This document shows positions 6,940-27,880 of a DNA stretch of 64,000 bases, one piece after another. This DNA comes from Apoda limacodes. Taxonomy: Eukaryota; Arthropoda; Insecta; Lepidoptera; Limacodidae. The notes below the pieces were generated by a model. It did no database searches. It saw only the letters and a program-made list of their open reading frames with translations, and was not told the DNA's origin. Made by a program: the position numbers and the translations under genes. Location of the stretch: contig OX291561.1 of assembly GCA_946406115.1 (NCBI GenBank), forward strand, positions 9,726,273 through 9,790,272, in the 5' to 3' direction. Each line of letters opens with the position of its first letter. The stretch's first letter is position 1.

Positions 6940-8323
6940 CATTCAAAACAACTGAACATCTTAACTCAAGTCCAATTTTAGCAGAAAATTAATAAAAACT
7001 AATGTTCCTGAATGTAAAGCTCCCTTCGTATTTAAAAACATTAGTCCTACGGATCTCATAAATACATTTAAAACATTAGAAATAAATTAACACCACAGAC
7101 CTGTGGGGACTTTCTGTTAAAACTATATACTCAATAATTCATGTTGTAGCGCAACCCTTAGCCGTAATTTTTAATAGTTGTGAGTTTCCTGATGAGATGA
7201 AACTTAGCAAAGTTATTCCTTATTTTATATCAGGTAGTTCAACAGATCCTAATAATTTTCGGCCTATTTCTATACTACCTGTACTCAGTAATAGTTATTG
7301 AAAAAATCATACTTTGTCAAAGGTTAAGCCGTTTCTGTATTAATGACCTACTCAGTAGTAAATAGTTTGGCTTTATGAAAGGCCGTTCCACAATCGACGC
7401 AGGAGTGGCACTATTAAAAAATATATTTAACGTCTGGGAGTATTCGCATGATGCTCTTGGAGTGTTTTGTGATTTTATGTAAGGCATTTGACTGTGTCCA
7501 ACATGAAAATCTTATCAGGAAGTTCTATCATTATGGTATTAGAGGCAAAACTCTCAACTTTCTGACTTCCTACATGCGTAGCAGAGTACAGAAAATAGAT
7601 GTCAACGGTGAAAGATCTCCGGGAACAGAAGTCACTATGGGAGTCTGTCAGGGCTCGATTTTAGGTCCTTTTCTATTTCTTATTTACATTAATAATTTCC
7701 CATATCATATTAAAAACCATGAAATTGACTTAATTGCTGATGACACCTCTTTACTTCTTAAAATTAAGAGACGACAGACATGTTATGATGAATTAAATAA
7801 AGCCATTTTTTAAATTGTGAATTGGTTTAACGCTTATAATTTGTTACTTAATGATATAAAAAAGGGTTCAATTTACATTACCATATAGTTTAATGACATA
7901 TGGTATCTTCAGCGCTGCTGATGTAAGTACAATTTTTTTTTTTACAAAAATTGGCAATTTGTACTATTTATAAATTAGGATATCTCTGAGGGATAGGTTT
8001 AGGGAAGTAAATATTTTAATTAGCATCGCAGTATATATATGAAAATCTTTTATATGTACATAAAAATATCAATAGTTTCAGCAAGAAAAGTGACGTTCAC
8101 AAAGTACTAGAAGTAAAAATAAGCTGTTGGTGCATGATAATGTCTACACAAAGTTAGTAACTCTTTTATGGGGCAATGTATACACGTTGACGACAAAGTT
8201 CCCAATAATATTCAAAAGCTATCAATAAGTAAATTTAAATCTTTTATCAAACAACTACTTTGTAAAAAAGCATACTACAATATTTCAGAATATATAAATG
8301 ATAAAAATCCATGGGATTGAAGA
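6940..8323 (+). pseudogene. LINE reverse transcriptase (jockey/CR1-like), decayed, 3' half
   Basis: Frames rich in stops and shifts read a LINE polymerase in order. They give an RT lead-in (SCEFPDEMKLSKVIP at about 7185), FRPISILPVLS (7255), GFMKGRST (7370), the palm motif KAFDCVQHENLI (7485), GVCQGSILGPFLFLIYINN (7640) and the catalytic box as IADDTSLL (7735). Sequence from 7814 to about 8090 is degraded. The C-terminus returns as YINDKNPWD and a TGA at 8318-8320. The reading is from short motifs in several frames. The 3' UTR of the same LINE continues at 20847 on the far side of the large transposon. Confidence 0.8.
8315..8323 (+). repeat. left copy of the 9-bp target-site duplication (GATTGAAGA)
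   Basis: GATTGAAGA directly precedes the left terminal inverted repeat and is repeated without mismatch right after the right one. It includes the stop codon TGA of the host LINE. Confidence 0.9.
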
Positions 8324-10070
8324 AGCTCCGTCAAGCTAGCGATGGCGATTTTTGCAAATGCAAAAAAAAATCACACCCTAATTTTCGGCTATTTTTCGGC
8401 AAATTTAGGGCAGCAAAAAAAATTTTTCGGCTCTTGTGGTTTTTGTTTAAATAATGTTTTTCGTGAACACTTCCAGCTTGACGTCAAGTTAGCAGGTAAG
8501 TGCAATATAGAGTGTTTTTTTTCACAATTCGAATAAGCCATATATTTCGGCTAATTATTGGCTTTACAAAAAGCTATAGATCATAAGGTTTCGTCCAGTT
8601 AATTTTTATTTATAAACTTTCCAATAGCGGCACTTCTTACTTGACGTCAAGTTAGCGGGTAAGTATATTCACAAACAATTTTTCATACAAATTTTGTATC
8701 TTAAATTTCTCGGCTAATTATAGGCTTTCCAAAAAGCATAGTCCATTGTTATTTTTCTTTTTAAAAATTATAGTGCAAACTGTTCTCACATATATAATAT
8801 ATATACGCTAAAGGTACGTTTTCATGGGAGCGATTGTCGCTCAGCGGGGCTCAGAGTTCAGCGATAGCTGGCGATAGCTGACAGCCGCTCTGCTACTGTC
8901 TGCTACTTTGCAGCATATATATGTATGTTTTGCATAACATAACCCTTAAACGATTGAGTTTATTTTTGTTTATTTTCGCAATATATGATTATATGATATT
9001 AAGGCGTTTATTAATGCAAGGTTATAAGAATACAGAGTTTTTTATTACTACATTTTAGAATTTTATTGCACTTTTGTCAATGAATTAAATGATAAAATTG
9101 TAAATTATAATTTTTTTCAACGAAAACTGAATTTTTATATTTTTCTGAATTATGTCTACAAATTTATACTTATCTACATGTTGTATATAATATTTCTTTC
9201 TACAAAATAATAATTTGCAAATAATGTATAAATTCAGTGTTTATAAATAATCTGAATTGAAAATTGACGGAAATGATAAAATTGCAAATTATAATTTTTT
9301 CCAACGAAGATTGAATTTTTATATTTTTCTGAATTATGTCTACAAATAATTATTTCAGTCTACGAATAATAATTTACAAATAATAATTATAAACTTTGTA
9401 TGTGTATTTGTATGTATATTTATTTGGCACGTCATTCATTCATTTAAAAACATAACAGATATAACATCCATGAAGAACCTGGAAAAATTATGTCACGATT
9501 TTAAGAAATCTTAAAATTTTTATAAAATGTCTTTGAAATTCAGAAACTTTTGTGGCAATTTTCGAAATGTTTTCAAAATTTTCTCATTTTTAAAAATTTA
9601 ATGATTTTTTACAAGTTTAGCATTTTTTTGTAATTCACTTCGTGGTGGATTCTTTGAAGCGAGAGACATATATATATATTGATTGACATAAAATGTCAAT
9701 CAAGTTTTTCTAACATTGATAATTGAGGATATTACATGAAAATTTCACTCAATGAAAAACTGTTGATATTTCGAGGAACTACAATGTGACCTGTTCAATT
9801 TGGAAAACAACTGAAATTTTCAAACTTTGTATGTTTGCAAAGACCAAAACATATTTTAACTTGAGTTTTCACTTAAAATTTACCACGTACAGAGATTTAA
9901 TTTTCCATATATCAAATACGGAATGTTGTGAGTGTGAATTTAAAAAAAAAATTTCAAACATTAATGTACAAAGTATTTGCTGATCATTTCTAATTATCTT
10001 GATTAGATTTAACTTGATTCTAGATAAAAAAAAAAAAAAGGTGAAAAAACACTGTGTGAGAATTGATTTT
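8324..10070 (+). repeat. left terminal inverted repeat, about 1,747 bp
   Basis: It pairs with 19134-20846. Differences include about 26 bp present only here (near 8347-8372), one fewer copy of an 11-bp repeat (CGATAGCTGG, around 8855-8880) and small A-tract changes. Inside are three related copies of GTCAAGYTAGC at 8330, 8483 and 8646. The second and third lie in the 12-bp palindrome CTTGACGTCAAG. There are also repeated TTTCGGCTA motifs. Confidence 0.92.
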
Positions 10071-10222
10071 ACGAAAAACCACTACTGATCACTACACGTA
10101 GTACAACCAATAGTGATTTGGACAATAGTGATGGGTAGTGATGATGAAAATTGGTATTTTTTTTTATTGAAATAACATTTTTACCTAAATTTTTTTATTA
10201 AAATACAAAAATACATCACATG

Positions 10223-10480
10223 TTAAGGTAGTATGCGTAAGGTGCGTACTTTTCGATTGATTGTGATAAAAAAAATTATTTGAATGTAAAAAACAGTAGT
10301 TTTCTCTAAAAAAAATTCGTAGAGTAAACTTTTTGAGTGAATGGTGAAAAGGGTTTTTACCCCATGAAAAAAATGTACAATTTGTCAAAGGACAAATATT
10401 CTTATAAGGTTCTAAATATCTCATGAATTTTTTTTATCAAAATCTATCGAAAAGTACGCACCTTATACGTACTACCTTAA
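10223..10480. mobile_element. 258-bp MITE with about 50-bp inverted repeats and TTAA ends
   Basis: The left arm begins TTAAGGTAGTATGCGTAAGG. The right arm ends with the matching complement ending TACTACCTTAA. The arms pair over about 50 bp, including the AAGTACGCACCTTA segment. TTAA at both edges suggests a TTAA target duplication, as made by piggyBac- or Kolobok-type elements. It sits between the left inverted repeat and the transposase gene of the large element. Confidence 0.75.
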
Positions 10481-10493
10481 TGTTCATTACAAT

Positions 10494-10675
10494 CTACTTC
10501 ACATTTGCCGCTTTCTCTTCGATACTCCTGGGTGTAATGAAGTTCTGCAATAAAAGTAAATATTAATGTAAATAAAGAATGAGTTTTTAAATGAGTTTTA
10601 AAAGCAATACATTACATATTCTGTCGTTGTGTTTGCCACAGCATCAGCGACTTTTATGGCTTGGTCTGCTACGTT
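10494..10675 (-). CDS. possible antisense two-exon coding piece of unknown function
   Basis: On the minus strand, exon 10675-10616 follows an acceptor (TTTTTTCAG), is exactly 20 codons, and ends at a GTAATG donor. The second exon, 10544-10494, follows TTTTATTGCAG and ends in TAG. The phase-0 joint gives a stop-free reading (KVADAVANTTTEY, then NFITPRSIEEK). I do not recognise the protein. No convincing 5' exon was found, although an upstream ATG near 10760 is in frame with the first piece if the intron is retained. It could be an alternative small gene of the large transposon or chance. Confidence 0.3.
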
Positions 10676-10820
10676 CTGAAAAAATATCATAATTAAAATT
10701 TCAATTATTCTATTATTTTTCAGAAGTGAACGAGGGATCAGTTCTTCCGCGACCGGCATAGTATACCCTCAAGCACTAAATCGTACGAGGCGGCGCGATC
10801 TTCCGGGCAAATATTCGAAA

Positions 10821-11466
10821 ATGCCCCGCGGAAGACCGCGTAAGACTGATTACGATGTCATTAAACATGCGGTAGAAAAGTATCAAGATAGTGTTTTTAC
10901 CGAGGACGGGAAAGTGAAGCCACGCACGGATCCTATTTGGATAGTTCTAGAGGAAGAAACTACATACTCGATTAATTCGCTGTACGCGTATTTATTGAAA
11001 AATCGAGATGAATTTAGACCAGCAAAACAAGAATCAGCGATACAGAATGAATCCAACGACACGACAAAATTCGATTTCACATCGCATCTCTCGGACGTGT
11101 GTGATTTTGACATTGAATTTAACGGCAGCGAATTCAAAAATCTTCTCAGGGAACGAGAATGTCGAAGGAAGGAGAGAGGAAAATACATTTCGACAATAAA
11201 AACAGTTTTTAAACCGTATGAGTGGGAGCATCCAATGTCGCTTAAAATTTGGAACAAAACCGATATAACTTGTGGTTTTAAGTATCGTCACCATCAATTT
11301 GCGCCTTTCAAGAAAACAGGCGAATTCCTTGCCGGTTGCGCATGTGGATCTACCTTGGAAGGAAAAATATCCGAAATTGATCAGCCAATCGTTAAAATTG
11401 CATGCCACTTTGTGAAGGGAGCTGGCATCTGTGGAAAATCCTACATCCGAGGTTCTCATAGGCGTG
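10821..11466 (+). CDS. exon 1: AT-hook and zinc-ligand N-terminal region of the transposase
   Basis: It starts at ATG 10821 with MPRGRPRK, an AT-hook-like DNA-contacting motif. A helical DNA-binding candidate follows (residues 1-65). Later, GCACGSTLEGK and GAGICGKSYIRG place Cys and His ligands in a pattern like the zinc-binding N-termini of Mutator-type transposases. The donor is G/GTTAGT at 11467, phase 1, and it joins exon 2 as ...HRR-ELGER. The frame is open throughout. The 124- and 165-aa antisense frames over it are shadows. Confidence 0.8.
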
Positions 11467-12429
11467 GTTAGTTTATTCCATTCCAAACTTGTTATTTTAT
11501 TGAGAGATGAACAATAATTTTTATAATACACAAATAATTCGTCAAAATTAAATTTCCATCATCAAGAAATAAAAATTCAAGCTTGAGTAGAGTAGAGATG
11601 TAATATAAACGTAATTACATTTATCGAAATAATAATAAATAAACTTTTATATACTTATGAGTAGATGACATTTGAATCGCAATAATTGTATTTAAACGCC
11701 AAATTTCATGAACTTAGATCATGAATAAAAGACTCTGTTTTATATTTTTTTAATAATCACAATTTTTCATACCTAAATAATGTAAGGGGTCATTTCACAT
11801 AAAATTTGAAACCAAAAAATTTTTTATCGCACTGTTAAATGCGAAATTTTTGACACGTAATTTTTGCAACATATAAAATTTACTTGACATTTTTATAGCT
11901 GTATGCTTTAAAAGAATTAGGAAAAAAACTCTACAATTGAACCTTCGTCTTGCAAAATTAATGAACAAATGGATTGTTCTACAATTTGTACATTGTTGTT
12001 TATATATTTTTCGTTTTTAAATATGCATTAATAATGGTTGTATAGAAAATGTAAAATGTGCCGATGTATACTTGCCGGAGATATTTAATTTACAATCAAG
12101 ACTGTAATGCGTTGGAATTTTTTATATTTTACTATATTTTTATTACTTTTTTTCTATTTTTTTAGGCTGGTGATTTTTCAATAATAACGACTTTGAATTT
12201 AGTATGAGAAGTTTTTTTTATGCCATGTGATCTAATTCTTAATTGGTTTACAAATTACTATGATATATTCCGATGGACTTACCTTTTATCAATTATCCCA
12301 ATTTTCGTTCACGCGCACGGTTATACGCAATTTTTAACAAGTCACAATTTCAAATTCTGGCGATGAAAGAATAATTTTTTACTTCAAATTTAAAATGGAA
12401 TATTTTACTGTTATTTAAAAAAAATTAGT

Positions 12430-13010
12430 GTCGGACAACCGTCCGGAATCGTGACAACTTGTGCCTTTCACTTTTTATGTCTGTCTCTCTCGCTCTTAGG
12501 CGGGCTAACCATGCCGCGTGCCTCTCACTCGCTCTCATTGTGAGCGCATAACGTGAGCGGAGCGTAACGCAGTTTCTTGAAGTGTCACCCGGCAAACCAA
12601 TTTATAAGACGTTGTCACGTCAAAATCATTTAGCAATTCAAGTATATCCCATTATATAGTAAAAATGTTGAAGTAAAAGGTTGAAGGGTCTTCAGTCCTT
12701 CAAGACATCCCCATCTCATTTCACGTGAACCCGTATCGCGGGAGGGGCGGCAGGTGTGTCCTGACCTTCTCGCGCAGCGCCGACGCCGCGCGGCCGCGGG
12801 CACTGGGGAGGGGATGGCGACTTCGCGCTTTCCGCGGCTCGCGCGGAGACGCGGCCAAACGCTGCGGCAACTTTGAAATGCCATAACTCGGGAACCGCTT
12901 GATGAAATGTGATGATCTTTTTTTTATTTGATAAAGCGTTTCGAGAGGAACAATAATAAGCCCTCGAATTGGCGCTGTTGCCACTTCTTTATGCTATGGG
13001 GGGGCACCGC
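12430..13010. repeat. GC-rich block of foreign composition inside intron 1
   Basis: This stretch is far richer in G and C than the surrounding AT-rich intron, with CGCGCAGCGCCGACGCCGCG near 12770. It carries phrases such as GTCTGTCTCTCTCGCTC and GCCATAACTCGGGAACCGC that look like an independent repeat nested in the large transposon. I could not find clear terminal repeats or a target duplication. No coding frame is supported. Confidence 0.45.
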
Positions 13011-13264
13011 AAATTTTTATGAGCACTATATTGCAATAAATGTTTATTGCAAATATGTTTTTTTAGCCGAAATTTTTTTTTCGGTTTTTTAGCCGAAAAA
13101 ACCTAATTTGACTGGACTATAGAACATTTCTAAATCAGATATTAGTCTTACAGCTCTACTAGACTCAAATTTATAAATTTCCCTTATTCGATTTTTCAAT
13201 AATTTAACTATAAAAATGTGTAAAAAATTCTTTGTCTCTTTGTTTAAACTTATTTAATTTACAG

Positions 13265-13645
13265 AGTTAGGAGAACGAATGAAAGAAGGCAATATTGCAG
13301 CGAAAACGTATAGGAACAAGAAAGCAAACGACAATGTGAAATATGGACAGTTAGAACCAGGTTTTATGTACAATGAGGGTGTCTTACGACAAGTCAAGTA
13401 TGAAGTTAATATGAAATCAAGAATTGATCCTGACGTACGACGTAGCTCTCCATGAGTTGTAAAGGGAGGCGTGCAAAGACTCAATTCATGACATTGGATA
13501 TGACCCCTTTTTCGTTCATTATTCGTCGGCATATCAACTCCACCAATACAAAATATTAGAAAAGAGAGGGAAGTTGACAGCGGAAATAGATGCAACCGGT
13601 GGAATTGCCCATAAAGTAACTTACAAGAGTGGCACTTCTTCTCCG
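13265..13645 (+). pseudogene. exon 2: first catalytic acid of the DDE core, frameshifted
   Basis: Acceptor TTTACAG ends at 13264 and donor G/GTAAGA begins at 13646. The exon opens in phase with exon 1 (ELGERMKEG) and ends with LTAEIDATGGIAHK, where the aspartate codon 13589-13591 is the probable first catalytic residue. Between the two parts the frame moves by one base near 13435, and a TAA stands at 13460-13462. Outside these two lesions both parts read smoothly, so the exon was coding until recently. Confidence 0.75.
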
Positions 13646-15289
13646 GTAAGAACATTTTTTTCATAAAAACTAAATCCATCTATACTGAAAATGGCCTCTT
13701 CAAACTCTTTGAAGAACTTTTTATAAGAATTAGTAATCGAAGTATAATACTTATGTCATTACATTTTACAACGCATTCCATTTTTCATATTAATAGATAT
13801 TACTGAGCAAAATATGCGAATAATGCGAAAATCATACATATTTATTAAGGTATATTTACATGATTGTCACAGTCAATTTGTGTGATCGAGTTTATTATCA
13901 AAGTATATATATATGCTTTTGAGATATGAATTTCGATTCATTGTCCAGGTTTATTATTTCAAAATTACGGCATAATTCGAGCTTATTTTTCGCGAATTAC
14001 AATTACAATTACAAATAATTTCTTGAGTTTATTGATTTTTTTTAATTGATTTATTAATTCCTTGAATTATTTAAGAATTTCATTTTTCTGCGAGATTTAT
14101 GTTGTTTTTAGGGTGTTTAGGCTCAGTGACCGTAAATTCGACATTATTTTTGTGTAATCAATTTTTTCTGCAATTCATTCAAAAATATATTGTATTTCAG
14201 CAAAATTTAAGTGGTTTTTGATGATTTTTAGTCGAATTGAAGAACCAGAATTCGACATTATTTTTGCAACATTCATGCGATTCAACAGTGAACATTCATG
14301 CGATTATTCAAAGAAATTATTAGATGATTTTCAAGACGTATAAATGTTAGAAAAATAATGACACATTCTGGTTTATTGACACTAAAAACTATAAGAAGGA
14401 TTTTAATCTTGCAGAAATATGATATTCTGAAATGAATATTTCAGAAAAAAATGTTCAAATTGATATCACAAGAATTATGTCGAATTTTGGTTCACGAGCC
14501 TGAAAACCTTGAAGACGACATGCAAATCTTGCAGAAAAATAACATTTTCATATAATTTGTAAAGCAAATTGTTTAAATAAATTGATATAGCAAAAAAATT
14601 TTAAATTCTTTTTTAACGGCGGAAAAAACAGAAAAGTTACATAATAATGAGAAAAAAACGTTTTATCCGTAAAATGGCAATATTCTGTGATTTGCGAAAA
14701 ATAACCATTCCATATACTTTTAATTTTTTTGTTTGAACATTATCGGGTCAGAAAGAACTTTCAAAATCTCTCAGTAATTTACAAGTTCACAAAAATTGAT
14801 TACATAAAAAATTTTTTAGCAAAAGATTCATTACAATATTGTAATGAATCTTTTATTCTTGCCCTGTATGGGCCTGAGAAATTTGTAAATAATAATTATT
14901 AGTCAAAAGAAACCATATTATTAGATTTGTTAACGTTAGATTACAAAAGATCCAAATTATCTGTATAAAATTCACAAAATATTACTACGTATTTATTAAT
15001 TTCTTTATTATATAAGATCAACGGGCATTTCCATGTTTCATTACAAGAAATATATAAAATACAATCATATTGATAGCACTAGTATAATTGAATACACGCA
15101 GATTATTTCTTTTATTCAACATAAAAATGAATTATTCTGGTCACTATTTATTCATTTTCTTAATTTCCAGAAAAAAACTGCTATTGAATTAAGTAAAATG
15201 ATCAAAATGTACAAAAGTTCTTTCCAACTCGACAGGTAAACTCGTATCACATTATTACAAAAATTTAATGACATTTTATATCATTTCAG

Positions 15290-15854
15290 GTTGTTTTTTT
15301 GTACCAAATGATGGTGAGAAATTCCGATGAATCTCATGCATTCCCCGCTGCACAAATGCTGAGTTCAAAGCATAACACCAACGCTCTGAATTCCTGGCTT
15401 CTTGAAATTATCCGCAGTGGTGCTAGCAGTCCAGACGAAGCAGTGATGGATAGTAGTCTAGCGCTATTGTCAGCATCGATTCGAGCATACACCTCTTGTG
15501 AAACCATCGCTGGGTATGCCAAACAGTGCTTCCAAAACTTGAAGGGAACAGCTGCTTTACCAAAATGTTATATCAGAATCGATGTGGCCCATTACATCAA
15601 GTCGTGGCGCGATTTCATCTGCAAAACAAATCCGAACATAATGCCAACAATATTAAAATTTTATCTCAGTGCGATTGGGCAGGCCATTATGGCAGATTCT
15701 CTTGAAAAATTTGAATCCATCATTACATCGTTACTGATAGTAAGCCAAAGCACGTATGATGGAAATGGGACACCTTGCGATGAGCATAAATTGAAAATCA
15801 AAAGTCTGATTACAGCAGAGGAAAATTCTTTCGTTGGAGAAGCAAGTCAAATAG
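15290..15854 (+). CDS. exon 3: second catalytic acid and RIDVAH motif of the transposase
   Basis: The exon follows TTTCAG and joins exon 2 in phase 0. The reading goes through VFLYQMMVRN, FPAAQMLSSKHNTNAL and EAVMDSSLALL (aspartate at 15449-15451, probable second catalytic acid). It continues with YIRIDVAHYIKSW (His at 15590-15592), which takes the place of the C/D..H motif that follows the second acid in MULE transposases. No stop or shift is seen. The donor is at 15855 (GTATTA). Confidence 0.8.
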
Positions 15855-16036
15855 GTATTATATATAAGCATACTATGAATTTCCGATGTCATTATATCTC
15901 ATTTTTTTTCATTATATCTTTATAAGCATAAAAATTAGTATTTCGAATGCAATAGAACTGAACAGTTATCAAACGTTAGAATAATAATTTTTGACAAGAC
16001 CTCATAATTATTATTTTCAATATCTGCATTTTTTAG

Positions 16037-16810
16037 ATTCAAATAGCGTGACTGGAATCATTGACAAAATAACGAAAGAGCCAGTGTCATTGGTAACGAT
16101 TGCGGAAGTTGAGGAACAAATTCTCGAAGGCTCTTATGACTGTGCACAATGGGCCACAAATATCAATTTGAATATCATGGAAAAATTTATCCACCCATAC
16201 GAAAATGAAGTTTCCGAAAATATAAATGCCCATTTATGCAACGAATTTGCCGCACGATTAATTAAGGAATGTGGGACATTCCCTCTGTGGTCATGCGTGA
16301 ACCAGCCGAATTTCAACAACATTAAAAATAGGGATTTTCATGACCTTCCACAAAGAGTAGATGATTTTGTCCCCAAACATCTGGATTTATTGAATGCCTC
16401 TATGATTTTAAGAGCTGCGGAACAGGCGTTAAAAACAAAGGAATTGCACGAAAACTGTGGACTGGAGGGGACTATGAGTGATGATGAAAAAAATGATGAT
16501 GCTTACATAGGTACTAATCATATGTCTTATATTTGAAGGATGTTTATGCAACAGTTCAATTTATCAAAATATAACTTATTTACAGTGACAAACTATGAAG
16601 AAAATTGGAGGGGACTTGTTGCAGAAAATGGTCTGAAAAGAAAGAGAAAGGAAAAAACCATTCCAAGTTCGAGTTCAGAAAACGAAGATGACGCAGTGGA
16701 TTTTGTAGATGACACTGATAAATCCATGGAAGAGGACAACAAACTCAAACAATCGTGCTCCATTGTTGTAGAGAAAATTGATTTTGATAATTCATTTTCA
16801 AATGAAAAAA
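16037..16810 (+). CDS. exons 4 and 5: transposase C-terminal core and acidic linker
   Basis: Exon 4 (16037-16510) follows TTTTTTAG and joins exon 3 as SQI-DSNSVTG. Exon 5 (16586-16810) follows TTATTTACAG and joins as VTNYEENWRGL, a motif I associate with this transposase group. It then passes into a low-complexity acidic and basic linker (KRKRKEK, SSSSENEDD). The third catalytic acid is probably within exon 4 but cannot be assigned by eye. A 75-bp intron separates the two exons. Confidence 0.75.
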
Positions 16811-16893
16811 GTAAAAAGAAGTTGCGCTCATTTTAAAAAATCGCTTTTTTGATTGGAATTTACACTAAATTTATTTGCTATGTTATATTCTAG

Positions 16894-18222
16894 GATTCTA
16901 CTCAGAGGATGAAAAAGAAAAAACACAAGATTACAATATCAAAAATGACGTCTGCAAAGGAAATATTGTAAAAGAGAAGAGAGCAAGGAAAAAAGTCGGT
17001 ATTTGGATGCAAATTACGTTGACAATAACTTCATCTTGCATAGGAAGTTGAGTAAACTACCTTTAATTAAGAATGGAAACAATTTGAAACTGGAATGTAT
17101 CTCAATTGATGGAAAGATGTTTACCCTCCACAATACATGTCCAATTGACAGCCTATTTCAAGTATGTATGAATACTTTAAGTTTAGCAAATATTAAGTTA
17201 GTCTTTTGAATTTTCTAATAAGTTAGTCTTTTGAATATTCGAATTTTCAAAGTTTATACAGCCTTTTATGACTTAATCATTTGCTTGTACTTATATTTTC
17301 AGCTTGTACTGTCATCAATTGTCGACAGCCCCAGATTCAAAGAAATATGTGAGCGTACAAACAACGGATTCCTCACAATGATACACAACGTATCAGAAAA
17401 GGGACTGACAAGTGGCTCTTATCGCCAAAGAGCGATGTTAATGAAAGATATATTCAAAAACTTCATCAAAGAACCCGAAAATGGCCATTGTCTTGTGGGA
17501 TGCCATTCAAATATATGTGACTTGTACCCACAATTACTAGGAGAAATCGAAAGTGCGACGCTGCAAACATCATGCAAAAAAGATACATGCTCTGAAACAT
17601 CACGAACGAATGCTTACGACATTTTCATGCTGGAGAGGCATACTTTTAATAAAAAAGATTCTTTGAGCGAATTGATAAGAAAATGTATTTTGAAGAGAGT
17701 AACACGCATGCATCGGTGTAAAAACTTCTCTATCTCTGTAACTGGAGGTAAAAGATTTTCAAAAGTAATATTATACTCTTTTGATTGAAAAAAATTAATT
17801 GCAAATAATTTTTTCCAGGTGAATTGTTAGGGATAAATTTATACCCTACCATAGGATGGACAATGCAGTTAAATGATGTACCCCATCGCATTGATTTGCC
17901 GTATTCTAATGACCATTATGAACTGGGAGGGGTCATAGCTTTTGATCAATTTGGTGCCAATCTGGACATTGTGCCTGAAAAGAAATCGGAATTGAATACC
18001 ATGGAGATAATTGTGGACGTAACAAAGATAGAGGAAGATTTTCAGCCAAAAAAATCTTCGACCCCTAAAGTTGTCCAGAAAAAAGTCCATGGTCACTACA
18101 CGGCAGTAGTATTTCGCAGAGGCAACTGGATCGAATACGACGACTGCAAAGAAAAAGAAAAGAGGGTGTCAGGAAAACTGAAAATAGAGCCGCATCTTTT
18201 GTTCTACAGGAAACTTGGCTAA
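16894..18222 (+). pseudogene. exons 6-8: USP-like cysteine protease domain, one frameshift
   Basis: Exon 6 (16894-17161) starts in frame with exon 5 and loses one base near 16990-16997. It then reads RYLDANYVDNN and the cysteine box HNTCPIDSLFQ (Cys codon 17138-17140). Exon 7 (17303-17747) is helical, and exon 8 (17819-18222) ends in the histidine box VHGHYTAVVFRRGNWIEYDD (His 18094-18096; DD 18139-18144) and HLLFYRK before TAA. Cys and His boxes in this order, a W-x3-DD and a terminal LLFY match the papain-like fold of ubiquitin-specific proteases (peptidase C19). Its substrate is unknown; ubiquitin or SUMO-like conjugates are an inference. Confidence 0.72.
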
Positions 18223-19133
18223 ATAATAGTAAGAATCCTTTATTGTTCATTCAAAAATTGAATTGACTAATTTCATCGAATAATTTCAACGAAATAAAAT
18301 TTGGGGCGAATTTTTAACTAAATTTTCAAAAAAATAAAAAAATTAATTTAAAAAATGTTTTTTAGATATTGTTACTTAATGATTAATTAAAGAAAACATG
18401 ACCTTCAACAGATTCAATACTCGGTATAATTCTTCGAATTTATATTGTGCATTTATCATTTCGTAAAATTATGCTTGGACTTATCAACAATGTATAAATA
18501 ATTGATTTCATTTCATTTCGGCAGTGACAGCTTCGCAACTGCTATATTCTCAGCAATAAGAGCAGACTAATCAGACTTATCATCGAGAAGTCTGTCAATG
18601 GCAATAATTTTCCATCCTATCTATGGCGATTCCATCCTATTCCAGGCAAAATTGGACAAATTTCAATGGATTCGAGGGATCGCAATTTTTTTCTATATAT
18701 ATTTTAAATAAATAAGCAACGCAATTTACAAATAATTTTTGGTATTATTATGTTTAACTTTCAACATTAACAGCTATATTTCTTTAAAATGATTATTCGC
18801 ATTAAATTGTTTCTCTTGTATAATTTTTTGAATTATTTAAAAAATATATCGTCGAATATTTGTATGTTAGACAATGAAATTGTATTTTTAAATACTGTTC
18901 TGCAAAATGAATCCTTTTATCCTTGGTTCTAAAAAAATTAGAAAAAATTTTGCATTCTTCTTGCATATCAACCTTTCGATACAGATTGGATAAAATTTTT
19001 GATAAGGCTTGAAAAAATTGCAGAAATTGTATACTTTTTAGACAACTCAAAGTGAAAAAAATAAGCAAAGAAGCTTTGTATGTAAAATTATAGTTTAGTA
19101 AAAAAAGAGTAAATTTTATACCTTTATAAATAC
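18223..19133. other. 3' non-coding part of the large transposon
   Basis: AT-rich sequence between the stop codon of the transposase and the right inverted repeat. I see no coding frame, RNA gene or repeat here. Confidence 0.6.
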
Positions 19134-20846
19134 AAAATCAATTCTTACACAGGCTTTTTTCGCCTTTTATCTTTTTTTTATCTAGAATTAAGTTAAATCT
19201 AATCAAGATAATTAGATTTGTACATTAATGTTTGAAAAAATTTTTTTTAATTCACACTAACAACATTCCGTATTTGATGGAAAATTAAATCTCTGTACAT
19301 GGTAAATTTCAAGTAAAAACTCAAGTTAAAAATATGTTTTGGTCTTTGCAAACATACAAAGTTTGAAAATTTCAGTTGTTTTCCAAATTGAACAGGTCAC
19401 ATTGTAGTTCCTCGAAATATCAACAGTTTTTCATTGAGTGAAATTTTCATGTAATATCCTCAATTATCAATGTTAGAAAAACTTGATTGACATTTTATGT
19501 CAATCAATATATATATATGTCTCTCGCTTCAAAGAATCCACCACGAAGTGAATTACAAAAAAATGCTAAACTTGTAAAAAATCATTAAATTTTTAAAAAT
19601 GAGAAAATTTTGAAAACATTTCGAAAATTGCCACAAAAGTTTCTGAATTTCAAAGACATTTTATAAAAATTTTAAGATTTCTTAAAATCGTGACATAATT
19701 TTTCCAGGTTCTTCATGGATGTTATACCTGTTATGTTTTTAAATGAATGAATGACGTGCCAAATAAATATACATACAAATACACATACAAAGTTTATAAT
19801 TATTATTTGTAAATTATTATTCGTAGACTGAAATAATTATTTGTAGACATAATTCAGAAAAATATAAAAATTCAATCTTCGTTGGAAAAAATTATAATTT
19901 GCAATTTTATCATTTCCGTCAATTTTCAATTCAGATTATTTATAAACACTGAATTTATACATTATTTGCAAATTATTATTTTGTAGAAAGAAATATTATA
20001 TACAACATGTAGATAAGTATAAATTTGTAGACATAATTCAGAAAAATATAAAAATTCAGTTTTCGTTGAAAAAAATTATAATTTACAATTTTATCATTTA
20101 ATTCATTGACAAAAGTGCAATAAAATTCTAAAATGTAGTAATAAAAAACTCTGTATTCTTATAACCTTGCATTAATAAACGCCTTAATATCATATAATCA
20201 TATATTGCGAAAATAAACAAAAATAAACTCAATCGTTTAAGGGTTATGTTATGCAAAACATACATATATATGCTGCAAAGTAGCAGACAGTAGCAGAGCG
20301 GCTGTCAGCTATCGCCAGCTATCGCCAGCTATCGCTGAACTCTGAGCCCCGCTGAGCGACAATCGCTCCCATGAAAACGTACCTTTAGCGTATATATATT
20401 ATATATGTGAGAACAGTTTGCACTATAATTTTTAAAAAGAAAAATAACAATGGACTATGCTTTTTGGAAAGCCTATAATTAGCCGAGAAATTTAAGATAC
20501 AAAATTTGTATGAAAAATTGTTTGTGAATATACTTACCCGCTAACTTGACGTCAAGTAAGAAGTGCCGCTATTGGAAAGTTTATAAATAAAAATTAACTG
20601 GACGAAACCTTATGATCTATAGCTTTTTGTAAAGCCAATAATTAGCCGAAATATATGGCTTATTCGAATTGTGAAAAAAAACACTCTATATTGCACTTAC
20701 CTGCTAACTTGACGTCAAGCTGGAAGTGTTCACGAAAAACATTATTTAAACAAAAACCACAAGAGCCGAAAAAATTTTTTTGCTGCCCTAAATTTGCCGA
20801 AAAATAGCCGAAAATTAGGGTGTGCCATCGCTAGCTTGACGGAGCT
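19134..20846 (-). repeat. right terminal inverted repeat, about 1,713 bp
   Basis: It is the reverse complement of 8324-10070. It carries three tandem CGCCAGCTAT units near 20310-20335 where the left side has two, and lacks the 26-bp block near the left terminus. The GTCAAG motifs are mirrored at 20835-20840, 20708-20713 and 20545-20550. Confidence 0.92.
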
Positions 20847-20855
20847 GATTGAAGA
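20847..20855 (+). repeat. right copy of the 9-bp target-site duplication (GATTGAAGA)
   Basis: Identical to 8315-8323 and immediately outside the right inverted repeat. Confidence 0.9.
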
Positions 20856-26300: not shown

Positions 26301-26439
26301 AAACGACTATTTGAAGAATTACACGACTTAATCATAGCAAATTAAGTCTGCAAAATCCTTCGAGTACAGAACAAAACAATAGTACTCGAAGCACACCATG
26401 AAACAGACCAATTTCAAAAAGCCTGCGCTATACAAACCG

Positions 26440-27880
26440 ACTTGAGTGATTGTAAAAATACCTTCACCCCACGGAAAATAAGCATAAACTCCATGACCGT
26501 CAGTTTCATTAAGGGCCACACAAAAAACTACGTCGGATGTACCAAAGCCTCACTCTACCATGAGATCGACATATACGAGGACACGGGAGAAAACCTAAAC
26601 CATCTAAGGCCTCCAAACCCGTCCCGCACACAACCAACAGACTGCTGGGGGGCACCCAGGGCCACAATCTATGATAACAGCACTTCCCAAACCATCAAAG
26701 GGAAGAAAATTACCACACATATGGCAGCATATAACTCATCGGAAGGCTTTGTCGAATCAGACAAAGAAGTGACGGAACAAACCGACAACATCACCTTCAA
26801 GGCGACCGAAAAGGACCCATTAGTAGTGACAACTAAAGACACAAAATTGAGGCTCATAGACAAAATCCTGAAAATGGCAAATAAAATATCCACCACCACC
26901 ACAGGAGAGCCATCTTTTGACAACTGGTCACCACCAAATATCAAACGGGTAAATGGAGTCCCCGGCTGCGGCAAGACAACATGGGTAATTAACAACTTTA
27001 ACACCGAATACGACATTATAACAACAACAACCTCCTAAGCCGCAAAAGACCTGAGAGCAAAAATCAAAGGTAAATATAACATTAAAACAAACAGGAAAGT
27101 TCGCACTATGGCCTCGATCTTAGTCAACGGTGTCACTCCCACAGAAAAGACTAACTGCAGGAGACTAATAGTCGACGAAGCCCTAATGAATCATCTCGGA
27201 GCAGTGGTAATGACAATGGTAATCACTGGGGCAAAGGAAATCCTTATCACTGGAGATATAAACCAACGGCCCTACATTGACCGACAAAATATTTTTGCCA
27301 TGGAATACAACAGACCAACACTTATGGCTTCAGTCACCCAAGAACTGTTATGTACACACAGGAACCCAATGGACGTCGCTTATGTCCTCCATGAAGTATA
27401 CATTTGCATCTACTCGTCAAAAAAAAACGTCACATCTCTCATCCTGAAAACATACTCAGACGCAGTCATTCCCAAAGACCAAACACCCTCTACCTCGTCT
27501 TCACCCAAGAGGATAAGACGCTTCTAAAAAATTCAGGGTATGGGAATGCCAGTAACTAAAGCGTCCTAACAGTACATGAAGCACAGGGACTGACATACGA
27601 TGACCTAGTAAAAATCCAGGCGTCCTCAAGGAAACTCCAATTACACAACAGTGTACCTCGTGCAGTAGTCGCTATTTCAAGACACACAACCACATGCACC
27701 TTCTATATGGACAGCACCGACAGCGCCACAGGACGGTTCTTCAAGCATGGCATAACAAGTCCTAACACCATCCTGGACTACAACATCATGATGCCCATGA
27801 ATAACCGAGACTAAAGAACCATAGAAACACTGGCAGAACTCACCAACAGCATATGGCAAAAAGTGAATGAAGTGCAGTGA
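26440..27880 (+). pseudogene. (+)RNA virus-like superfamily 1 helicase domain, endogenised or LINE-captured
   Basis: After an upstream region of unknown role (26442-26930) the ordered SF1 helicase motifs appear. They are motif I GVPGCGKT (26955), motif II LIVDEALM (Asp-Glu at 27174-27179), motif III ILITGDINQ (27252) with FAMEY, R-N-P-x-DV (27360), motif V VHEAQGLTYDD (27572) and motif VI VVAISRHT (27667). This order and wording match the helicase of alphavirus-like (+)RNA viruses. An in-frame TAA at 27036-27038 and a shift after about 27527 break it. It follows LINE copy A in the same orientation and with the same AC-rich composition, so it may be part of that element or a virus-derived insert. 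It cannot make a full protein as it stands. Confidence 0.72.

Follow-up and report, generated by a model that had tools for sequence, protein, structure and literature searches.

Can the transposase of an animal DNA transposon carry its own ubiquitin protease as a part of the same chain? This question is raised by a 64,000-nucleotide stretch of the genome of the moth Apoda limacodes (Lepidoptera, Limacodidae; assembly GCA_946406115.1, contig OX291561.1, positions 9,726,273 to 9,790,272), here called the window, in which an initial annotation had described a transposase fused to a ubiquitin-protease-like domain in one spliced gene at 10821-18222. The locus is probably a decayed cut-and-paste transposon of the Mutator/Rehavkus kind, whose one gene combines a DNA-binding region, a D-D-E transposase and a USP protease of family C19 that would act on the transposase or on chromatin. 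The ends of the element, its target-site duplication (TSD), the exon chain, the presence of the fusion in relatives and the conserved Cys, His and Asp of the protease are established at the level of sequence.

The annotated range proved to be that of the gene; the transposon is larger and spans 8324-20846 (12,523 bp), with the eight-exon gene inside it and a perfect 9-bp TSD, GATTGAAGA, at both ends. Its parts are the following, with the basis of each assignment in brackets:

8315..8323, no strand: left TSD, GATTGAAGA (read directly; identical to 20847-20855)
8324..10049, + strand: left terminal inverted arm, about 1.7 kb (inverted-repeat pieces; outermost 22 nt read)
10821..11466, + strand: exon 1, with ATG, AT-hook-like MPRGRPRK and a Cys-containing N-terminal region (translation; Pfam AT_hook E 0.58-0.9)
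13265..13645, + strand: exon 2, first catalytic Asp (IDATGG, codon 13589-13591), frame broken within the exon (translation, motif alignment)
15290..15854, + strand: exon 3, second catalytic Asp (MDSSLAL, codon 15449-15451) and Cys...His motif QCF...DVAHYIK (translation, motif alignment)
16037..16510, + strand: exon 4, which closes the DDE domain; near 16306 it has lost 48 nt that contain the third catalytic residue, VES in both sister copies (sister comparison)
16586..16810, + strand: exon 5, charged linker (translation)
16894..17161, + strand: exon 6, linker and USP Cys box NTCPIDSLFQ (Cys codon 17138-17140), frame broken within the exon (translation, domain alignment)
17303..17747, + strand: exon 7, middle part of the USP domain with Cys pairs (translation, domain alignment)
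17819..18222, + strand: exon 8, USP His box GHYTAVVF (His codon 18094-18096), YDD (Asp codon 18139-18141) and stop (translation, domain alignment)
19156..20846, - strand: right terminal inverted arm (inverted-repeat search and arm alignment)
20847..20855, no strand: right TSD, GATTGAAGA (read directly)

Aligned over their whole length (1749 columns), the two arms show 1673 matches, 16 mismatches and 60 gap columns. Two pieces of the left arm, 8372-8880 (509 nt) and 8861-9857 (997 nt), are repeated in inverted orientation at 100% identity, and weaker inner pieces extend up to 10049. A stretch of 26 nt close to the left-arm end is absent from the right arm, and a similar stretch occurs in the right arm of a sister copy on contig C3. 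Each arm contains a 77-nt repeat twice, the copies lying 184 nt apart, and TRF called no array there. Just inside the left arm, at 10223-10480, a pair of 55-nt inverted repeats with a spacing of 148 nt is possibly a small nested element.

All seven introns of the gene are GT-AG and the junction phases (1, 0, 1, 1, 1, 0, 1), derived from a reading of the sequence and the translations, agree with each other, so that the eight exons with consistent phases of the initial annotation were confirmed. Its motifs were likewise all recovered (DATGG, MDSS, RIDVAHYIK, NTCPIDSLF and GHYTAVVF with YDD); RIDVAHYIK is present, but as a His motif after the second Asp and not as the third catalytic motif. A single product could not be upheld. 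The window copy is dead as a coding unit, because exons 2 and 6 change frame and exon 4 has lost 48 nt including the VES block. Within the first intron, a block at 12440-12990 is GC-richer than its AT-rich surroundings and may be a nested insertion.

Searches of the own genome covered 800 Mb in 31 contigs, where a 1001-base probe hit at least 3 places. Two sister copies, at C24:4.69Mb and C3:6.22Mb, are 96.8-100% identical to the window in the exon stretches that they retain; some pieces of their arms and flanks are 87-96% identical. At exons 2, 4 and 6 the C3 copy reads open; its own damage consists of 18 nt missing from exon 1, a stop codon within exon 3 and a break of the frame in exon 7. 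In the C24:4.69Mb copy, exons 2 and 4 are open, exon 3 has lost 4 nt, exon 6 ends ahead of the Cys box, and the stretch examined gave no match to exons 1, 7 and 8. As each has its own lesions, all three copies examined are broken.

The unity of the two domains is best seen in diverged relatives. A protein search with the stitched window product (residues 1-1065 of 1129; 7993 scored candidates) returned a single protein at E<=0.001, P0001 from the beetle Phaedon cochleariae (1133 aa, 27% identity over 63%, E 1.3e-58), which in UniRef bears the name 'USP domain-containing protein', an automatic UniProt label that already flags this protein. Such a match, together with two sister copies, means that the fusion gene exceeds what chance would produce. 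With the DDE region of P0001 as query, three of 390 candidates were found: P0001 itself, P0002 (917 aa, Phaedon cochleariae) and P0003 (623 aa; 83% identity over 25% of the region). Both domains are present in P0001 and P0002. P0003 is a predicted protein listed on a single 4389-base contig. It begins at the end of the DDE domain, continues across a Cys-rich finger and enters the Cys half of the USP domain, ending ahead of the His box.

In the own genome, P0001 gave 21 matches that were grouped into nine loci, and at seven of these a transposase is followed by a protease on one strand (the window, C3:6.2Mb, C1:27.9Mb, C1:43.3Mb, C7:19.4Mb, C20:28.3Mb and C27:11.55Mb). Five diverged loci thus carry the pair besides the window and its C3 sister; at C27 about 5.5 kb separates the two parts, and no Cys box was seen. 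The remaining two loci are a truncated sister without the USP part and C24:13.2Mb, with a transposase only within 15 kb. The check for co-occurrence in relatives was therefore positive, and the pairing of a DDE transposase with a USP/C19-like domain holds for the three database proteins (P0003 lacking the His box) and for seven of nine loci. Among the viral contigs searched, no relative was found, and a search of NCBIfam gave no match.

The locus C1:27.9Mb (L031/L032) contains an uninterrupted 403-aa frame with the USP domain, and its arms carry a tandem array of ~325 bp (164 bp). A diverged copy of the end of this frame lies on the opposite strand at L031:2700-2795. The frame has 22 matches in the own genome, many of which comprise only its last 25-100 residues (C28:26197086, C18:28264913, C5:17702711); these are perhaps non-autonomous elements that retain the 3' end of the gene.

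To which family does the C-terminal domain belong? Six domains were chosen by hand and aligned, those of C7 and C20 after joining across breaks; P0002 (same domain as P0001), the near-identical C3 sister and the short C1:43.3Mb and C27 were left out. The Cys is present in six of six domains, and GH[YF] and the [DN] after Y in five of the five that reach that far, in the order Cys, His, Asp/Asn as in USP; C1:43.3Mb adds a Cys box and a His box, and C27 a His box. These catalytic boxes are kept although identity to the first row of the alignment is 21-25%. A profile of the six domains matched 48 PDB sequences at E<=10, namely 45 USPs, two TssM (a deubiquitinase) and one transferrin, the best being USP18 (7.2e-5), whereas a reversed-sequence control profile gave two matches, both ribosomal, and no USP. 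Three of the six domains matched Pfam UCH: the Phaedon domain when cut out (4.4e-7, 30.2 bits against a cut-off of 23.9; 29.0 bits with the finger retained) and, under the cut-off, those of C1:27.9Mb (1.6e-4; 0.0075 for the whole 403-aa frame) and C20 (1.1e-3). Like the cellular USPs of family C19 (USP18, USP21, USP2), the domains have a Cys box, Cys pairs, a His box and an Asp; they differ in being transposon-borne and in an Asp three residues after the Cys, and C1:27.9Mb matches USP8 at E 0.15. A C48 (Ulp1) protease, in which His comes before Cys, was rejected, because Cys precedes His here and no C48 family is among the Pfam matches. The choice of C19 over C48 stands on this order and on the USPs found by the family profile.

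On the transposase side, P0001, C1:27.9Mb and C7 retain the blocks D (DATGG), D-x-S-x-A-L, His and VE...F, and the window retains all of them except the Glu, which the C3 sister still has. In the aligned rows the first Asp, the second Asp and the His occur in 4/4 each, the Cys in 3/4 and the Glu in 4/5. The blocks named D, D-x-x-x-A-L, C...H and E are those of the MULE superfamily. Their order and the 9-bp TSD (10 bp, CGATTTTCTG, in the C7 relative, whose arms measure 180 bp) are shared with the Mutator-like elements (MULE, PF10551). A KDZ transposase, suggested as a possible alternative by the initial annotation, could be discarded: the TSD and arms of KDZ elements are unlike those of the window element, no KDZ family appears in the Pfam tables at E<=10, and the 9-bp TSD and long arms fit Mutator/Rehavkus.

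Rehavkus elements (Repbase; an outgroup or sister of MULEs) are described from arthropods and annelids with a 9-bp TSD, terminal inverted repeats (TIRs) of 26-400 bp, one open reading frame, a PHD finger and a minisatellite ahead of the 3' TIR (PMC6446971). They share with the element a 9-bp TSD, one gene and repeats in the inverted termini, and the 325/164-bp array in the C1:27.9Mb arms recalls the 164-bp satellite within the inverted termini of the 9.5-kb Rehavkus-1_TC (PMC10218199). The window arms of about 1.7 kb exceed and so fall outside the TIR range of 26-400 bp, which is tabulated from few known elements (PMC6446971). A Cys-rich finger, a candidate counterpart of the PHD finger, lies between DDE and USP in P0001-P0003 and C1:43.3Mb, and none was seen in the window family; finger families matched these Cys pairs only at E>1 in the full proteins, and CBL at E 0.21 in PDB. 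The element is placed in the Mutator superfamily, most likely near Rehavkus, with which it was compared by description only.

A number of results weigh against the proposed fusion of a Mutator-type transposase and an active USP. On the transposase side, the DDE core gave no Pfam match in the window or Phaedon, and Pfam MULE was matched by one relative only (E 0.049-0.11; best score 14.5 bits against a cut-off of 27.6); one of the nine loci, C24:13.2Mb, has a transposase without USP, and P0001 is an unnamed predicted product. On the protease side, three of the six domains, including that of the window, have no Pfam UCH match. The window domain alone matches no USP model, and it and the Phaedon domain are too diverged to match any PDB chain as single sequences. 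The passing UCH score requires an excised domain, because full-length P0001 and P0002 show no UCH match at E<=10, perhaps an effect of filtering, and the match of the excised Phaedon domain spans profile positions 93-254 with the Cys box outside. Scores of the PDB profile lie mostly in the His-box half, the Cys box contributing only 3.7 bits in the best match, and many of the 48 PDB matches are constructs of the same USPs. A two-row full-length profile found no USP in PDB and TssM at E 3.2, and an AlphaFold2 model of P0001 from a 3-row alignment reached a pLDDT of 26.9, which is useless for judging the fold.

Of the other explanations, the one that survives best, unlikely as it is, keeps the USP fold and assigns it SUMO or another ubiquitin-like protein as substrate. 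All six domains have an Asp three residues after the Cys, where USPs usually have an Asn. One member also matches Peptidase_C98, the family of USPL1, at E 0.011; the same member scores better for UCH (1.6e-4), and the 48 PDB matches do not include USPL1. In plants, there are MULEs that bear an Ulp1 domain (PMC13317346). Ubiquitin and SUMO are both candidate substrates: USPL1, an enzyme of the USP fold, is described to cleave SUMO (PMC8983731), and the C98 match exists, if weakly.

It is improbable that the protease part is a mere passenger, a fragment of a host USP gene captured in the manner of Pack-MULEs and having no role in transposition. Mutator elements are described as prone to picking up fragments of host genes (PMC6446971, PMC8277862), and the differences between the window and its C3 sister are mostly nonsynonymous (13/14 changes in transposase exons, 6/8 in protease exons), as for copies that decay without selection; this comparison of sister copies is uninformative on selection. 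Against the passenger speak the same order and strand in diverged families of the own genome and in a beetle, and the persistence of the catalytic boxes at such low identity. The 42 UCH matches in the own genome (26-113 bits, best candidates only) by their coordinates include none of these elements, which makes a recent capture of a host USP unlikely and indicates that the transposon domain has diverged from cellular USPs. In another family, the 403-aa USP frame of C1:27.9Mb was compared with its relative at C24:13.43Mb over four matched pieces that overlap by few codons, and nonsynonymous (dN) and synonymous (dS) divergence were 0.123 and 0.272, a dN/dS of 0.45 (Fisher p 0.0006). This ratio comes from a single pair with one decayed member, which counts against leaning on it; the decay, seen as one stop codon within the aligned part, shifts dN/dS in the direction of 1. 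No match was found for the transposase frames of this pair in the stretch compared.

Slightly less probable still is a USP domain with little or no catalytic activity that would bind ubiquitin and so bring the transposase to ubiquitinated chromatin. Five of the six domains lack the Asn that canonical USPs have five positions ahead of the Cys as part of their oxyanion hole, a further point against an active enzyme. Every copy examined that reaches them, on the other hand, has retained the Cys, His and Asp/Asn. That transposase and protease are two neighbouring genes fused by gene prediction is highly improbable, since P0003 spans the junction on one contig and the window phases agree across all seven introns, even though P0001 and P0002 are predicted products and at C1:27.9Mb the parts are separate open reading frames in different frames that need an intron to join them.

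Elsewhere in the window, two adjoining open reading frames at 26346-27527 (+ strand) resemble viral superfamily 1 RNA helicases (Pfam Viral_helicase1, 6.7e-8 for the second and 0.0043 for the first). They lie near a reverse-transcriptase frame and are perhaps an endogenous RNA-virus-like fragment.

In the proposed transposon, the single spliced gene would specify an N-terminal DNA-binding region, an RNase-H-like D-D-E transposase and a C-terminal USP-type cysteine protease. The USP domain, if an active isopeptidase, would take ubiquitin (or SUMO) off the transposase and protect it from turnover or inhibition; alternatively, it might deconjugate histones or repair proteins at the donor or target DNA. 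Either kind of deconjugation could result in more transposition. Self-protection in cis is preferred, because the USP domain rides on the transposase chain itself. It is conceivable, and offered here as a tentative idea, that an animal transposon lineage permanently possesses, on the transposase chain, a catalytically competent USP, retained in a beetle and in several families of the own genome, which strips ubiquitin or SUMO from transposase or chromatin as a counter-defence against host control.

A partial precedent is known from the VANDAL MULEs of plants, where KIU genes carry the domain of Ulp1, a SUMO protease (PMC13317346). Of the element's three coding genes, KIU is described as a relative of VANC and as distinct from the transposase (PMC13317346). 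Common to both systems is a Mutator-type transposon with a ubiquitin-like deconjugase domain; the plant elements differ in that Ulp1 belongs to another protease family and KIU is separate from the transposase (PMC13317346). By analogy, the KIU parallel suggests that deconjugation may help Mutator elements. Among the papers listed by a literature search, which included all 8 with the word Rehavkus in the library searched, none reports a USP as part of a transposase of the Rehavkus or MULE kind; the search did not extend to reports in Repbase or to most subscription journals, where an earlier note may exist. The words 'ubiquitin', 'peptidase' and 'protease' are absent from the main text of PMC6446971, and 'ubiquitin' and 'peptidase' from that of PMC13359780.

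With an active domain, this would be a DNA transposon whose transposase is joined to a deubiquitinase of its own, a parallel, through a different protease family, to the Ulp1 domain of plant Mutator elements (PMC13317346). If this is true, it would become testable whether ubiquitin or SUMO marks on transposases or on target chromatin limit transposition in animals.

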